Shown here: one piece after another, positions 5,098-23,460 of the stretch
Numbering within the stretch: the stretch's first letter is position 1
Layout of the letters: each line of letters starts with the position of its first letter
Assembly: GCF_017311165.1 (NCBI RefSeq)
Contig: NZ_CP062973.1
Span: 1,736,001-1,800,000 of the forward strand
DNA length: 64,000 bases
Direction: 5' to 3'
From: Psychroflexus sp. ALD_RP9
GTDB taxonomy: Bacteria; Bacteroidota; Bacteroidia; Flavobacteriales; Flavobacteriaceae
Translations under genes and position numbers: made by a program
The notes under the pieces: model-generated
Database searches by the model: none
What the model was told of the DNA's origin: nothing
Seen by the model: the letters and a program-made list of their open reading frames with translations, nothing else

Positions 5098-6252
5098 ATG
5101 AGAAAAATCTGCGTAGTTGTCACCGCTCGACCATCCTATTCCAGAATTAAAACGGCGCTAAAAGCCATTCAAAAGCATCCTGATTTAGAATTGCAATTAG
5201 TGGTAGCGGCTTCTGCTTTGTTAGAGCGTTATGGTACAGCAGTCAATTACATTAAAGCGGATGGGTTTAAAATTGATGCCAAAGTTTTCAACGTCTTAGA
5301 AGGCGAAAACCTCACTGCTGCAGCCAAAACCACAGGCATTGGTATTTTAGAGTTGTCTAGTGTGTTTGAAAACTTGCAACCTGACATTGTGGTTACCGTA
5401 GCCGATCGCTTTGAAACCATGGCAACGGCTATTGCGGCTTCCTATATGAATATTCCTTTAGCCCATATCCAAGGCGGCGAAGTCACCGGCAACATCGACG
5501 AGAAAGTGCGCCATAGCATTACCAAATTAGCCGATTATCATTTGGTGGCATCAAAAGATGCCAAAGAACGTGTACTTCAATTAGGAGAAGAAGCCAATTC
5601 CGTCTTTAATACAGGCTGTCCGTCTATCGATTTAGCTAAAGAAGTTCAAAGCTTAAACAAGCTTAGTTTTAATCCCTATGAAAAATATGGTGGTGTAGGA
5701 GCGCACCCCGATTTAAGTCAATCCTATTGGGTCGTCATGCAGCATCCCGTAACTAACGAATACCAAAATTCGCGAAAACATGTAGAAACGACCTTAGAAG
5801 CTATTCGCCAACAAGTTGATGTTCCTGTGTTGTGGTTTTGGCCCAATGTAGATGCGGGTTCCGATGGTACTTCTACAGGTATACGAGCTTTTAGAGAAAA
5901 ATATGATTTGAGTCATGTGCATTTCTTTAAAAACATGCAAGGCAATGATTTCTTAAACTTACTGGATCAATCTAAGGGGCTAATCGGTAATTCTTCGGTA
6001 GGCATACGTGAGTGCGCTTACTTAGGTGTTCCTGTCATTAATATTGGAAGTCGACAAAATCGCCGCCAACGCGGTGAAAATGTAATTGATGTAGATTACA
6101 GCACAGAAGCCATAACCGAAGCCATGCAACAAATTGAAAAGCAGTCTAGACCAGCTTCAACAAATATCTATGGCAATGGAGATGCAGGTAAAAATATTGC
6201 CCAGGTTTTAGCTCAAGTAGAGTTGAAGTTTCATAAGACGATTGTTTATTAG
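5098..6252 (+). CDS. neuC: UDP-N-acetylglucosamine 2-epimerase (hydrolysing), NeuC/LegG type
   Basis: Releases UDP from a UDP-HexNAc while epimerising C2, giving free ManNAc (or a diacetamido analogue) for nonulosonic-acid synthesis. Motifs in order: KICVVVTARPSYSRIKTALKA at the N-terminus, VTVADRFETMATAIAASY near residue 100, HIQGGEVTGNIDEKVRHSITK near 123, NTGCPSIDLAK near 172, VVMQHPVTNEY near 206 and GNSSVGIRECAYLGVPVINIG near 300. The length of 384 aa is normal for the family. It pairs with neuA at 6868 and neuB at 16790. Its stop codon overlaps the first unit of a heptanucleotide repeat array, so any operon here has been interrupted. Whether the product is a sialic or legionaminic precursor cannot be decided here. 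Confidence 0.88.
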   Translation: MRKICVVVTARPSYSRIKTALKAIQKHPDLELQLVVAASALLERYGTAVNYIKADGFKIDAKVFNVLEGENLTAAAKTTGIGILELSSVFENLQPDIVVTVADRFETMATAIAASYMNIPLAHIQGGEVTGNIDEKVRHSITKLADYHLVASKDAKERVLQLGEEANSVFNTGCPSIDLAKEVQSLNKLSFNPYEKYGGVGAHPDLSQSYWVVMQHPVTNEYQNSRKHVETTLEAIRQQVDVPVLWFWPNVDAGSDGTSTGIRAFREKYDLSHVHFFKNMQGNDFLNLLDQSKGLIGNSSVGIRECAYLGVPVINIGSRQNRRQRGENVIDVDYSTEAITEAMQQIEKQSRPASTNIYGNGDAGKNIAQVLAQVELKFHKTIVY

Positions 6253-6398
6253 TGAAGGGTGATGAGTGATGAGTGAAGAGTGATGAGTGAAGAGTGATGA
6301 GTGAAGAGTGATGAGTGAAGGGTGAAGAGTGATGAGTGAAGGGTGAAGAGTGATTAGTTAACAGTGATGAGTGAAGGGTGGTCAGTGAAGAGTTGATT
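6252..6398 (+). repeat. Tandem heptanucleotide array, GTGANNN type (21 units)
   Basis: Twenty-one consecutive 7-nt units stay in perfect register with no insertion or deletion. Most are GTGATGA, GTGAAGA or GTGAAGG. Rare variants are GTGATTA, GTTAACA, GTGGTCA and GTTGATT. Positions 1-4 (GTGA) are nearly constant and positions 5-7 vary. The first unit begins on the last base of the neuC stop codon and the array ends 16 nt before the four-helix-bundle gene. Because 7 is not a multiple of 3, the repeated TGA falls in all three plus-strand frames. A related array in the opposite orientation lies at 6781-6850. Confidence 0.95.
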
Positions 6399-6414
6399 TA
6401 ATAAATAATATAAA

Positions 6415-6767
6415 ATGAATCACAAGGATTTAGAAGCATGGAAAGTTAGCATGGATTTGGTGGATTATGTTTATCAATTATCTAAATCGATGCCTAGGTC
6501 TGAAGACTTCGTCTTAAAGCAACAATTTCTTAGATCTGCCATTTCAGTACCGTCAAATATAGCAGAAGGCTGTGGGAAAGTTCAGACAAAGAATTAATTA
6601 GATTTTTAGATATTAGTCTCGGTTCTTTAGCAGAACTCGACACTCAATTTGATATTGGATTCCGACAGAATTATTTTGAAAATGTTGAAGACTTTCAAGT
6701 TTTGTTAATTAAAACAAGAAAGCTGATTATAGGACTTAAAAATTATTTGAAAAAGAAAAGCAAATGA
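6415..6767 (+). pseudogene. Four-helix-bundle protein (23S rRNA IVP-like), frameshifted
   Basis: The first 60 codons (NHKDLEAWKVSMDLVDYVYQ ... SAISVPSNIAEGCGK) are the N-terminal half of the four-helix-bundle family related to 23S rRNA intervening-sequence proteins (S23, TIGR02436). The reading then leaves frame near 6574-6581 and stops at 6597. In another frame the expected C-terminal half continues (SSDKELIRFLDISLGSLAEL ... GLKNYLKKKSK) to a TGA at 6765-6767. One missing base in the GGGAAAG run restores a full protein of about 117 aa. So this is a recently broken gene, or a sequencing error in a short A run. It is flanked by inverted heptamer arrays and separates neuC from neuA. The family's function is not established; binding to structured RNA is an inference from the rRNA-IVS and Avd relatives. 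Confidence 0.85.
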
Positions 6768-6780
6768 ATGAACTAATAAT

Positions 6781-6850
6781 AATTCACAGCTCACTGATCA
6801 CTTTACGCAGTCTGCAAGTAAATGTTCACTGCTCACCCTTCACTCATCAC
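6781..6850 (-). repeat. Tandem heptanucleotide array, GTGANNN type, inverted (10 units)
   Basis: Read on the minus strand this is ten in-register heptamers: GTGATGA, GTGAAGG, GTGAGCA, GTGAACA, TTTACTT, GCAGACT, GCGTAAA, GTGATCA, GTGAGCT, GTGAATT. It mirrors the array at 6252-6398. The 14-mer at 6837-6850 is the exact complement of two adjacent units that occur three times in the upstream array (6308, 6329, 6364), so a transcript across 6252-6850 could fold into a long imperfect stem with the four-helix-bundle gene in the loop. It lies 17 nt before neuA. Confidence 0.88.
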
Positions 6851-6867
6851 CCAAACAGATGTAACAA

Positions 6868-7608
6868 ATGAAAAACTCAAATACACCTGAATTCCCAGTC
6901 ACTGATTTTACTTCACTCAAAATCCTCGCCATCATCCCTGCTCGTGGTGGAAGCAAGGGCGTGCCTAGAAAAAATATAAAAGAACTTGGCGGTAAACCCT
7001 TGTTAGCTTACACAGCAGATGCTGCACTTGCATCAAATTTAATTAGCAAAGTTATCTTATCTACTGAAGACGAAGAAATTATGCAAGTTGGTAAAACACT
7101 CGGATTAGAGGTGCCTTTTCAACGACCAAGTGAATTAGCACAAGATCAATCAGGTAGTTTAGGAGTAGTGCAGCATGCGGTTCAATACTTTGAAAAACAA
7201 GGAGAATTTTTTGATGCAGTTATTCTGTTACAAGTAACTTCACCTTTTAGAGAAGAAGGTTTTATCGATCTAGCGCTTGAAAAATTTATTACTTCAAAAG
7301 CTGATGCTTTAATAAGTGTGTTGCCGGTACCACATGAATATAATCCGCATTGGGTGTTTGAAACTGACCAGCATCACAACTTGCAAATTGCCACAGGCGA
7401 AAAGCAAATTATCAAACGTCGACAAGACTTGCCTAAGGCTTATTTTAGAGATGGTAGCATCTACATCACAAAAACAGAAGTTATTAAACAAGGTAGTTTC
7501 TTTGGGGAGAATTTAACATATATAGAGTCTAATCCCACAAAACATGTAAATATTGACACTTTAGAAGATTGGGAAAACGCAGAAGAAATGATAAAAACTC
7601 TGAAATAG
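6868..7608 (+). CDS. neuA: Acylneuraminate (nonulosonate) cytidylyltransferase
   Basis: Activates a nonulosonic acid as its CMP-sugar using CTP. The signature IIPARGGSKGVPRKNIKELG sits near residue 24, preceded by a 17-residue extension with no internal start. Further family elements are STEDEEIMQVGKTLGL near 64, RPSELAQDQSGSLGVVQHAV near 90, VILLQVTSPFR near 115, and the C-terminal RQDLPKAYFRDGSIYI near 190 with NIDTLEDWENAE at the end, where the second Mg-binding acidic residues fall. The length of 246 aa is slightly long because of the extension. It supplies a sialyltransferase-type enzyme that cannot yet be picked from the local glycosyltransferases. Its link to neuC is broken by the repeat cassette. 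Confidence 0.92.
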   Translation: MKNSNTPEFPVTDFTSLKILAIIPARGGSKGVPRKNIKELGGKPLLAYTADAALASNLISKVILSTEDEEIMQVGKTLGLEVPFQRPSELAQDQSGSLGVVQHAVQYFEKQGEFFDAVILLQVTSPFREEGFIDLALEKFITSKADALISVLPVPHEYNPHWVFETDQHHNLQIATGEKQIIKRRQDLPKAYFRDGSIYITKTEVIKQGSFFGENLTYIESNPTKHVNIDTLEDWENAEEMIKTLK

Positions 7609-14723: not shown

Positions 14724-14800
14724 GACAGTCCGCAGTCCATAGTTGACAGTCGACAGAAGACTGTAGACGGAAGACAAACGACAGATGACAAAAGAGAGAA
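14724..14800 (+). repeat. Tandem heptanucleotide array, GACANNN type (11 units)
   Basis: Eleven in-register 7-nt units run from 4 nt after the glycosyltransferase stop to 1 nt before the ATG of the four-helix-bundle gene: GACAGTC, CGCAGTC, CATAGTT, GACAGTC, GACAGAA, GACTGTA, GACGGAA, GACAAAC, GACAGAT, GACAAAA, GAGAGAA. There are no indels. The design is the same as at 6252 (a near-constant tetramer plus a variable triplet), but with a different tetramer. A 21-nt stretch (14741-14761) recurs exactly at 15480-15500. Confidence 0.92.
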
Positions 14801-14947
14801 AATGGATTACAAGAAATTAAATGTTTGGAAAGAATCAATTGAATTAGTCAAGCTGATTTATCAAGTCACTGCTATTTTTCCTAATGATGAAAGAATCAAT
14901 TGAATTAGTCAACTAAGACGTGCATCAGTTTCAATTCCATCTAACAC

Positions 14948-15239
14948 TTGACCTGTGAAATAAATTTAAAGCCCTATGAAAGATTTCTTTTACGTTTATA
15001 TATTGCAAAGTGAAACCGATGGCAAAAATTATGCAGGTTACACTCAGGATTTGAATTTACGATTTGAGCAACATAATAAAGGTTACGTAGAATCTACAAA
15101 ACAGAGAAGACCACTTAAGATGATTTATTTTGAAGCTTGTTTGTCTCAAAATGATGCCTTGAGAAGAGAAAAATATTTTAAAACTCATTATGGTAAAATG
15201 TTCTTGAAAAATAGACTCAAATCGTATTTCACGGGTTAG
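14948..15239 (+). mobile_element. Minimal GIY-YIG element with imperfect terminal inverted repeats
   Basis: The left end TTGACCTGTGAAATA (14948-14962) and the complement of the right end, CTAACCCGTGAAATA (15225-15239), match at 12 of 15 positions. The only gene inside is the GIY-YIG nuclease, and its stop codon lies inside the right repeat. The element interrupts a four-helix-bundle gene, and a 2-nt AC occurs on both sides (14946-14947, 15240-15241), compatible with a very short target duplication. No transposase is present. Mobility by the encoded nuclease or by a helper is inference; the split host gene is direct evidence of insertion. Confidence 0.65.
14976..15239 (+). CDS. GIY-YIG nuclease-domain protein
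   Basis: An 87-aa single-domain protein of the small UPF0213-like GIY-YIG group. YVYILQS at residue 6 is the GIY strand and YAGYTQDLNLRFEQHNKG near residue 19 contains the YIG-equivalent strand and the catalytic Arg. The MIYFEACLSQNDALRREKYF segment near residue 50 carries the conserved acidic and Arg residues, and the C-terminus ends KNRLKSYFTG. The family cleaves DNA or structured nucleic acid; no specific substrate is known for this subgroup. The gene fills the 292-bp element inserted in the four-helix-bundle gene. It looks intact, in contrast to the host gene around it. Confidence 0.85.
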   Translation: MKDFFYVYILQSETDGKNYAGYTQDLNLRFEQHNKGYVESTKQRRPLKMIYFEACLSQNDALRREKYFKTHYGKMFLKNRLKSYFTG

Positions 15240-15448
15240 ACTGAAGGCAACAGTCGGAGTTCAGATAAAGATTATAAGCGGTTTGTAGAGATAGCTTATG
15301 GTTCAGCGCTAGAGTTAGAGACCCAACTATTAATATCTGTTGAATTAAAGTTTATAGATGAAGATAATGAAGTATTTAGTAAATTAGAACAAGTTAAAAA
15401 ACTTTTGTCAGGATTTATTAAATATCTTAAGAAATAAGTTTAAAATTT

Positions 15449-15581
15449 GATAGTCCACAGTCCACAGTTTACAGTCCACAGTTGACAGTCGACAGAAGAC
15501 AATCGACAGATGACAGATGACAGAAGACAATCGACAGATGACAATCGACAGATGACAGAAGACAGACAACAGAAAACAGAA
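15449..15581 (+). repeat. Tandem heptanucleotide array, GACANNN type (19 units)
   Basis: Nineteen in-register heptamers without an indel: first GATAGTC/CACAGTC/CACAGTT-type units, then GACAGAT, GACAGAA and GACAATC in mixed order, ending AACAGAA twice, 2 nt before the ATG of the next glycosyltransferase. It has the same orientation as the array at 14724-14800, so the broken four-helix-bundle gene sits between direct copies. On the complementary strand the array creates a spurious Cys/Ser-rich frame with a 7-residue period. Confidence 0.93.
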
Positions 15582-15583
15582 CA

Positions 15584-16684
15584 ATGAAACAAAATCAACA
15601 CCAACCCATACGTGTTTTGCAAATCATCGACTCCTTAGAAGCTGGTGGTGGAGAACGTATGGCTGTTAATTTAGCCAATGCGCTTCATCAAAAAGTTGAT
15701 TTTTCTGGCTTAATTGCCACCCGTAAAGAAGGCTTGTTAAAGGCTGAGATTAACCATCTAGACCATTATTTATATGTAAATAAACGGCGTTCTGTAGATT
15801 TTAAAGCCCTTAGCTTAGCGATTCAGTTTATCAAGCAGCACCAAATCACCCATTTACACGCTCATAGCACTTCATTTTTTTTTGCAACGCTGATTAAAAT
15901 TAGAATGCCAAAATTAAAATTAATTTGGCATGATCACTACGGTGAAAGTGAGCAGTTAATTCATCGTCCCAGAAATATTTTGAAATACGCATCATTTTTT
16001 TTTAAAGCAATTATTTCAGTAAATGAAAAGTTAAAAAAATGGGCAGAAGATGAATTAAACTGCTCTCAAGTATCTTACATTAAAAATTTTTCAAGATTAA
16101 GTTTTAATAATATTCCTAAACAACAGCAGTTTTTAAAAAAGGGTAATGAAATTTTTCATTTGATTCAAGTTGCAAATATTCGTCCTCAAAAGAATCATGA
16201 AGTAGCTATTGAAGCTTTAAAGTTATTAAGCAAAACATTTTCAGTAAAACTACATTTATTAGGGCAATATCATATCAATGATAGGTACTACCAATCAATA
16301 AAAGATTTAATTCATCAACATCAATTAGATTTAAATGTTGAATTTTATGGAAGTGTTGAAAACGTTCAAGCCTATCTTGAGGAAGCCGATATTGCTTTGT
16401 TAAGTTCGCGATCAGAAGGCCTTCCTGTTAGTCTACTCGAATATGCCATAGCTCAAAAACCTGTAGTCATTACTGATGTTGGCCAATGCGCTTCGGTAGT
16501 GGGTGATTTTGCAAAAGTAGTTCAACCGGGTGACCCCAATGCGCTAGCGGCAGCGTTAAAATCTTATTTAGCTCATCCCCAAGAAGCAAAAAAAGATGCA
16601 GAGTTGCTTCATAAAAAAGTAATTTCAGAATATGGTGAAGCAGCAATTATCAATCAAATTGTTGAGATTTATAAAGCGGTTTAA
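15584..16684 (+). CDS. Glycosyltransferase family 4
   Basis: A 366-aa GT4 enzyme. The N-lobe has the classic opening RVLQIIDSLEAGGGERMAVNL with the glycine-rich acceptor loop, HLHAHSTSFFFATL near residue 92 and LIWHDHYGES near 113. The donor lobe begins HLIQVANIRPQKNHEVAIEAL near residue 192, then LHLLGQY near 224 and ALLSSRSEGLPVSLLEYAIA near 273 with the E-x7-E pair, followed by VITDVGQCASVVGDFAKVV. Its start codon lies 2 nt after the heptamer array, so its leader consists of repeat DNA. It is separated from neuB by 105 nt with no clear terminator. Confidence 0.88.
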   Translation: MKQNQHQPIRVLQIIDSLEAGGGERMAVNLANALHQKVDFSGLIATRKEGLLKAEINHLDHYLYVNKRRSVDFKALSLAIQFIKQHQITHLHAHSTSFFFATLIKIRMPKLKLIWHDHYGESEQLIHRPRNILKYASFFFKAIISVNEKLKKWAEDELNCSQVSYIKNFSRLSFNNIPKQQQFLKKGNEIFHLIQVANIRPQKNHEVAIEALKLLSKTFSVKLHLLGQYHINDRYYQSIKDLIHQHQLDLNVEFYGSVENVQAYLEEADIALLSSRSEGLPVSLLEYAIAQKPVVITDVGQCASVVGDFAKVVQPGDPNALAAALKSYLAHPQEAKKDAELLHKKVISEYGEAAIINQIVEIYKAV

Positions 16685-20288: not shown

Positions 20289-20680
20289 AGGCTTCGTTAC
20301 ATTTCTGCGAAAAAGCCGACATTACACAACTATACTACTATACTGCTTCACAAAACAGCTATAAGCTATAAGCCGTAAGCTTTAAGCCAAAAATGCCTAT
20401 TGCTTAAAACTTAGAGCTAACAAAACGATTCACTGGCAACCGCTAACTGAAAACAGGTTCTCGATACACTTTTTCTTTCCACATGGTTTCAAGAAAAACC
20501 ACTCGAACTGACAACAGAGGCTTCGATACATTCCGACGAAAATGTCGGAACACTCAGCCGCCGTGAATTTGGAACCGACAACGGACAACAGAGAACCGAT
20601 TTTACCATTACACCATTACACGAGCAACGATTCACTATTCACGGTTAACAGAAAACTGACAACCGAAAACCGACGAGCTC
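20289..20680. repeat. Left arm of a nested inverted repeat, built of 7-8 nt units
   Basis: This gene-free stretch lies between the last glycosyltransferase and the 3' end of mnmD. It contains two blocks that recur inverted downstream: 20349-20380 is a perfect 32-nt match to the complement of 23357-23388, and 20594-20613 is a perfect 20-nt match to the complement of 23238-23257. Much of it resolves into short units, for example CTATAAG, CTATAAG, CCGTAAG, CTTTAAG, and GATTCAC, TATTCAC, GGTTAAC, AGAAAAC, TGACAAC, CGAAAAC (20629-20670). Two related copies of a GAGGCTTCG-plus-ACATT motif start at 20289 and 20517, and a hairpin-like TCGATACAC...CACTCGAAC segment spans about 20460-20510. Confidence 0.8.
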
Positions 20681-23171: not shown

Positions 23172-23202
23172 GTTTTTAGTTTTTGTTTATTATAGGTTAT
23201 CG

Positions 23203-23460
23203 GTGACTCGTGATTTGTGATGCGTGATTCGCGAATTGTGTAATGGTAAAATCGGTTTTCTGTTTTCAGTTTTCTGTTATCAGTAACCAGTGATTCGTGA
23301 TTCGTGAATCGTGAATGGTGAAGTTGGCTTTAAGCGATTTTTGCTTACGGCATACTGCTTACGGCTTATAGCTTATAGCTGTTTTGTGTAGTGGTATAGT
23401 GGTGTAATGGTATAGTAGTAGATCAGTTTTCTGTTGTCTGTTTAGCGTTGTTCGTTTAGT
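23203..23460 (+). repeat. Right arm: continuous mosaic of 7-8 nt units in changing families
   Basis: Almost all of this 258-nt stretch parses into short units that begin with G. They run GTGACTC/GTGATTT/GTGATGC/GTGATTC, two octamers, GTTTTCT/GTTTTCA/GTTTTCT/GTTATCA/GTAACCA (23255-23289), five GTGANNN units (23290-23324), GCTTACG/GCATACT/GCTTACG/GCTTATA/GCTTATA (23343-23377), octamers GTGTAGTG/GTATAGTG/GTGTAATG/GTATAGTA (23386-23417), then GTTTTCT/GTTGTCT/GTTTAGC/GTTGTTC/GTTTAGT (23426-23460). The unit type therefore switches in blocks. Two of the blocks are exact inverted copies of the left arm near 20.3-20.6 kb. Confidence 0.85.

Follow-up and report, generated by a model that had tools for sequence, protein, structure and literature searches.

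The window, that is the 64,000 nucleotides of Psychroflexus sp. ALD_RP9 analysed here, carries between a neuC-like gene (PF02350) and a neuA-like gene (PF02348) a broken four-helix-bundle gene of the 23S rRNA IVP family, with tandem heptamer arrays on both sides. This locus raises the question of what the arrays are and why they accompany this gene. The initial annotation had described 21 plus-strand and 10 minus-strand units of the form GTGANNN, a left array free of insertions and deletions, a 14-mer at 6837-6850 able to pair with three sites of that array, a broken 23S-rRNA-IVP-like gene between the arrays and a location between neuC and neuA, and this description was borne out (Table 1).

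Cassettes of the window and arrays of the source genome

In the left array of the first cassette, 18 of the 21 units are exactly GTGA (GTTAACA, GTGGTCA and GTTGATT deviate), and a single frame runs throughout with zero indels. Its period-7 score was 72; among 2000 first-order Markov sequences of matched composition the highest value was 20. In the right array 7 of the 10 units are exact and three inner units have decayed; its score was 10, a signal that is modest taken alone, since 13 of the 2000 Markov sequences reached that value. The complement of 6837-6850 was found exactly at 6308, 6329 and 6364 in the left array, and the best ungapped segment between the arms scored 26 in inverted and 6 in direct orientation. 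Array edges come from this scoring and are uncertain by several bases. In a profile search, the front part of the IVP gene, whose coding sequence is spread over two frames, matched PF05635 (E 6.8e-19) and TIGR02436 (E 1.6e-16). An Rfam search of 5900-7000 gave no match, and the cassette lies outside rRNA genes. The feature is probably a decayed copy of a tiny mobile element, and because its IVP gene is broken the copy is probably inactive now.

Table 1. Positions of the cassette features in the window, and sites compared with empty counterparts
Feature	Position	Strand	Remark
Cassette 1, left arm, 21 GTGANNN heptamers	6252..6398	+	opens on the third base of the neuC stop codon (6250-6252)
Cassette 1, IVP/four-helix-bundle gene, frameshifted (PF05635, TIGR02436)	6415..6767	+	frames 6415-6597, then 6594-6767
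Cassette 1, right arm, 10 heptamer frames, 7 exact GTGA	6781..6850	-	
Cassette 2, left arm, ACAGTCG/ACAGAAG-type heptamers	14726..14799	+	
Cassette 2, front of broken IVP gene	14803..14949	+	
Cassette 2, GIY-YIG nuclease ORF (PF01541, 87 aa)	14976..15239	+	within the IVP gene
Cassette 2, rear of IVP gene	15240..15437	+	
Cassette 2, right arm, with GACAGAT and GACAGAA units	15452..15587	+	mainly direct to left arm
Site A			Trichormus and Scytonema plasmids, compared with L221-L223
Site B			cas10-cmr3 in Picosynechococcus
Sites C, D			Nostoc plasmids
Site E			five genomes of one Bacteroidota genus, compared with G065 and G175; G069 has other DNA there
Sites F, G, H			further Nostocales plasmids

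Another such cassette (cassette 2) occupies 14726-15587 of the window, with arrays on either side of an IVP gene split by a GIY-YIG ORF. Its arms scored 50 in direct and 14 in inverted orientation, and GACAGAT and GACAGAA units occur within 15491-15581. By eye, the GIY-YIG ORF interrupts the most conserved IVP motif of this cassette.

The source genome contains four IVP loci, all four with period-7 flanks on both sides; at the fourth (L004) these are weak, with scores of 11 and 12 where another period reached 11. A link between such arrays and IVP genes, suggested in the initial annotation, held far beyond chance and in many phyla when the genes were taken as the starting point (see below), but not when the arrays were: the GTGA-array pattern had 53 matches in the source genome, in about 11 clusters, of which only about 2 adjoin an IVP gene. 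The proposal that every array is tied to an IVP gene was rejected on this count. Large mixed-unit array clusters at 987-996 kb and 1728-1734 kb of this genome are also without IVP. The arrays that lack the gene may be remnants or a separate family of repeats. The link is one-way: most IVP genes have arrays, and many arrays have no IVP gene. Inspected by eye, the clusters at 1728-1734 kb (L378) are dense heptamer runs amid small toxin-antitoxin-like genes. In the window itself, mixed heptamer arrays without IVP at 20357-20672 and 23172-23426 bracket a three-gene block and, by eye, are roughly inverted relative to each other.

Flanks of IVP genes in Bacteroidota and other groups

PF05635 was present in 157 of 198 genomes of the window's phylum in a profile search. 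We scored the 220-nt flanks of the first 110 IVP loci listed for Bacteroidota, calling a period at a score of at least 9; best E-values were taken first, so this sample leans to canonical members. Period 7 was called in 128 of 220 IVP flanks and in 83 of 538 control gap ends at the same loci, and period 8 in 42 of 220 and 28 of 538, respectively. Because control ends are shorter (mean 150 nt), the better baseline is given by the other periods, alike in both sets: periods 2-6 and 9-13 stayed at background, in 0.5-4.5% of IVP flanks. Arrays of period 7 or 8 stood on both sides at 64 of the 110 loci, on one side at 37 and on neither at 9; demanding no more than a single arm sets a low bar, because controls carry period 7 too (83/538 here, 64/296 in the named genomes described below). 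The 64 two-armed loci comprised 51 of type 7/7, 12 of type 8/8 and one mixed.

The two flanks were complementary in inverted orientation at 89 of the 110 loci and in direct orientation at 15; inverted complementarity was found in 35 of 440 control comparisons across loci and in 15 of 181 around other small ORFs. Median arm length was 4.7 units for period 7 and 5.0 units for period 8. Left arms had more G than C in 51 of 64 loci and right arms more C than G in 53 of 64. A single fixed unit for all elements was rejected, AG/GG being present in the conserved core of only 45 of 86 strong left arms. The two arms of an element mostly consist of one unit, inverted, and the units vary from element to element.

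Named genomes were scanned for the best 80 of 567 relatives, from about 17 phyla, with group labels assigned from record titles. At least one arm was present at 72 of these best 80 loci (52 on both sides, 20 on one, with 8 unarmed), and inverted complementarity at 63. Among the same best 80, 39 of the 41 non-Bacteroidota loci were armed, in groups that include Chloroflexota, Bacillota, Planctomycetota, CPR and Methanophagales archaea. Period 7 was called in 112 of 159 flanks and 64 of 296 control ends of this set; period 8 was hardly enriched (18/159 versus 21/296). Four Bacteroidota loci (L141, L144, L161 and L168) showed period 9 or 10, not 7 or 8, on at least one side. Base composition was skewed as in Bacteroidota, with left arms G>C in 45 of 55 and right arms C>G in 47 of 55. 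A scan for rRNA at 39 of the 41 non-Bacteroidota loci (L150, L194 and the 39 Bacteroidota loci left out) found none, and an rRNA location was rejected for these 39 of the best 80. The design is general; many bacteria and some archaea carry relatives at the ends of genes, with a repeat spacing that goes with the kind of protein.

GIY-YIG genes served as a control family, with 24 usable loci of 30 (6 were at contig ends). Period 7 was called in 0 of 48 flanks and period 8 in 1 of 48; the arrays are therefore not a feature of this gene family, and GIY-YIG was rejected as their true partner. In 13 of the 24 loci the GIY-YIG genes (L262-L290) had inverted flanks (score at least 14) with no heptad period, and these genes are possibly another small mobile family with inverted ends of its own.

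Empty sites, occupied junctions and the match of arms to protein

Filled and empty versions of eight junctions (sites A to H, Table 1) differed by a discrete insertion, at or near stop codons. Clean 5-bp duplications, of a length usual for DNA transposition, were seen at sites A and D (GTAAT and TTCTA); the remaining six sites are too diverged, or the overlap is shorter or unclear. The insertion point was a stop codon or a stop/start overlap, and at sites F and H it lay ahead of the old stop codon. At sites D, E, F and H the first bases of the element provide a new stop codon, and at site G the element is antisense to the operon. Where the ends are known, annotation and inspection showed IVP as the sole gene between the arms, and no transposase was seen there.

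For the neuC-neuA junction, 8 relatives were fetched of the 14 other genomes with any match. All eight were occupied, and seven carry IVP genes, which fall into four types with arms particular to each; none of the eight provided an empty site for the window copy. The nearest to the broken gene of the window are L255, L256 and L258 (61-84% identity by piece), all with GTGANNN arms. Over 65 residues the L253 protein matches the rear of cassette 2 at 91% identity, and the arms of the two are alike. The eighth relative, L259, has a GIY-YIG gene and, by eye, an IVP remnant, the GIY-YIG gene with TCGAG-type repeats standing in place of most of the IVP gene.

At the wzm-wzt junction a match was present in 24 other genomes; of the 10 relatives fetched, 9 had IVP genes, of three types when the source genome's own copy is counted; proteins were 70-99% identical within a type and 30-49% between types, and each type had its own arms. 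At this junction G213 has arrays only, and G203 has a coding segment inserted within the arrays, an IS by eye; at a separate site, G175 has an arm-arm palindrome without a gene. The comparison of sites and junctions shows discrete insertion, arms as the ends, a gene-end position, and arms and period matching the protein. At six loci (L232, L233, L236, L237, L238 and L240) a short hairpin lies just 3' of the wzm stop, at the 5' edge of the element, with changes that by eye appear to compensate each other (GCAGCGAAGCTGC, GCGCCAGAGGCGC, GCGCTGAAAGCGC).

Between same-period loci of different genomes, the sharing of arm 5-mers was 0.08 where the proteins were 30-39% identical and climbed to 0.94 where identity exceeded 90%. 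For proteins less than 50% identical, residence in the same genome made no difference: 31 such pairs gave 0.10, and 7794 pairs from different genomes gave 0.09. Arms follow the protein, not the genome. A clear period was assigned to 101 of the 110 Bacteroidota loci (75 seven, 26 eight; 59 genomes), and 14 genomes contained both periods, G065 and G191 among them. On the IVP tree the period changed 6 times, compared with a mean of 18.05 after shuffling within genomes (0 of 1000 shuffles as low). Partners of period-8 loci at 60-69% identity in other genomes had period 8 in 97% of 155 pairs, which are not independent of one another; same-period pairs at this identity had only 24% of arm 5-mers in common. 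The period outlasts the letters of the arms, which leads us to infer that the step is set by the protein or by its binding partner. Co-inheritance of gene and arms accounts for part of the protein-arm match without any binding.

In a tree of 190 IVPs, many forks of which are unresolved, a clade of 18 had period 8 wherever it could be called, apart from L040, called 9, and the IVPs of two genomes of the same family (G084 and G170) grouped with Flavobacterium L164. Ten residues are at least 98% conserved in the 190 proteins (Y17, E27, Q34, R37, S41, N45, E48, G49, S68 and E71), and solved structures of relatives exist (2gsc, 2rld). The polar core of IVP would be compatible with an active site; no catalytic domain was recognised in the protein.

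Element ends, RNA stems and known repeats

The reading that we favour, with a probability of roughly 0.6, is a small mobile IVP element that has the arms as its ends and inserts at gene ends, the window holding a decayed and probably inactive copy. Such an element would measure about 0.43-0.6 kb and would contain one IVP gene and, at both ends, arrays of 7-nt units (8-nt in some clades), the right array usually inverted. Its target sites would be the 3' ends of genes or their close vicinity, for the most part inside operons, where the element would usually be oriented along the transcript. A short stretch of target would be duplicated on insertion (5 bp at the two clean sites). Because of the gene-end position and the new stop codon at the 5' edge (4 of 8 sites), the neighbouring genes would survive. 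An IVP oligomer may bind the periodic arms as DNA and thereby keep their period, and IVP may take part in mobility, with or without a partner enzyme.

The arms could instead act at the RNA level, pairing in the transcript so that RNase III cuts between cistrons, with pairing as the force that keeps them. The gene family, inverted arms and heptamers are those of the RNase III-excised Coxiella 23S intervening sequence (as reported in PMC4990558), and insertion between cistrons is where cutting would do no harm. Both neighbours were co-directional for 129 of 166 IVP genes, compared with 172 of 328 other small ORFs, and for 87 of 109 arrays the start fell between -20 and +19 nt relative to the stop codon upstream, a count with no control set. 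Co-directional bias and stop-codon position speak against a purely DNA view; instead of targeting, they may come from selection that favours harmless sites and expression. A conserved RNA stem would be expected to have more G.U than A.C among its mismatches. In 152 inverted stems there were 160 G.U and 204 A.C mismatches; since G.U is not favoured, an RNA stem is an unlikely reason for the arms, and the stem-gene-stem fold offered by the initial annotation was not supported as their explanation. In-register copying of one arm onto the other was rejected as weak, the score being 18.4 versus 16.6 with shuffled units, and at only 14 of 92 loci did at most 5 of 100 unit shuffles score as high. Arms that share a unit but are rarely in-register copies, together with the lack of a G.U excess, point to arms that serve as DNA ends or as binding sites. 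Some elements stand antisense (16) or divergent (13) to their neighbours, which counts against an excised RNA cassette, a reading that we regard as quite improbable.

We likewise hold it improbable that the element moves as RNA copied back by a reverse transcriptase acting in trans, with IVP as a nucleic-acid-binding helper like the Avd protein of DGRs. Co-directional bias would fit such a route. Avd is a homologous four-helix bundle (as stated in PMC10053308), and the window protein gave weak matches to bAvd PF22296 (E 4e-4) and to DGR Avd NF033474 (E 0.003), both below cut-off. However, IVP is the sole gene between the arms at sites with known ends, the 5-bp duplication fits DNA transposition, and neither the template and variable repeats nor the reverse transcriptase of a DGR was seen between the arms by annotation and inspection. 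Simple slippage, in which any spacer can expand a heptamer microsatellite and IVP genes are there by coincidence, is very improbable and already contradicted. Arrays without IVP are common, and among repeat units of 5-11 nt the heptamers reportedly rank first in abundance in most repeat-rich genomes (work cited in PMC4679880), but slippage would predict neither inverted orientation with a shared unit, nor specificity for IVP over GIY-YIG genes, nor empty sites, nor the within-genome agreement of period with the protein tree.

The resemblance to intervening sequences of rRNA that the initial annotation noted is real. In PMC4990558, the intervening sequence of Coxiella burnetii 23S rRNA has tandem GACAGAT and GACAGAA heptamers before the S23 ORF and a 28-bp inverted-repeat stem, and is reported to be excised by RNase III and to have been acquired horizontally. 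It shares with the cassettes the protein family, complementary ends around an ORF and the two heptamers found in cassette 2. Unlike it, the present elements lie outside rRNA, at gene 3' ends in operons, and occur in several copies or types per genome, with 7- or 8-nt arrays at both ends and a period set by protein clade. IVP has also been placed within rRNA insertions of CPR (PMC11270868). The cassettes are best read as free-standing kin of 23S rRNA intervening sequences; no earlier link of heptamer arrays to IVP genes outside rRNA was found in the open-licence literature.

Other described heptamers include the TAACTGA repeats of Beggiatoaceae (PMC4679880) and the GGGNATC repeats of Xanthomonas and Nostoc, with inverted pairs and stop-codon overlap (PMC4692102). 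The parts of these two papers that were searched discuss regulatory or structural roles, not ends of IVP elements, and gave 0 hits for four-helix-bundle or S23 terms. MITEs and insertion sequences resemble the cassettes in being short units with inverted ends, a short target duplication and gene-less remnants (as in G213 and G175), and relatives of the window copy have eight empty sites, two with the clean duplication; unlike them, the cassettes end in degenerate tandem arrays, not fixed terminal repeats, and have IVP as their single gene, without a known transposase domain.

A wider proposal, speculative and rather unlikely, is that IVP itself mobilises a so far unrecognised, self-sufficient kind of transposable element in bacteria and archaea, its oligomer reading the arms like a ladder with rungs 7 or 8 bp apart. 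The rRNA intervening sequences would then be copies that landed in rRNA, and the heptamers of cyanobacteria, Beggiatoaceae and Xanthomonas would be ends or remnants. With a single gene of some 115 codons between two short arrays, such an element would perhaps be the smallest known. The IVP element that we favour would in any case connect separate puzzles: what the abundant IVP/four-helix-bundle family does, where rRNA intervening sequences come from, and what gives rise to degenerate heptamers in cyanobacteria and others. It is predicted that IVP clades of period 7 and period 8 prefer DNA of matching spacing. Annotation would also benefit, since many genes labelled 'four helix bundle protein' within operons may be mobile elements that do not belong to the operon.

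Short tandemly repeated repetitive (STRR) sequences are degenerate heptamers in spacers of heterocystous cyanobacteria, and the arrays of the window are likewise tandem degenerate heptamers in spacers. The window host belongs to the Bacteroidota, yet arms of the same design are present on Nostocales plasmids. The resemblance to STRR proposed initially thus has support from IVP genes with such arms on plasmids, in a sample of 10 of 29 hit records, all cyanobacterial. A period-7 array preceded the IVP gene in 9 of these 10 and followed it in 5; the tenth locus (L202) had mixed 7/8 arms. On three of the cyanobacterial plasmids (L199, L202 and L203), IVP elements lie in CRISPR operons (cas6-cas4; cas10-cmr3).
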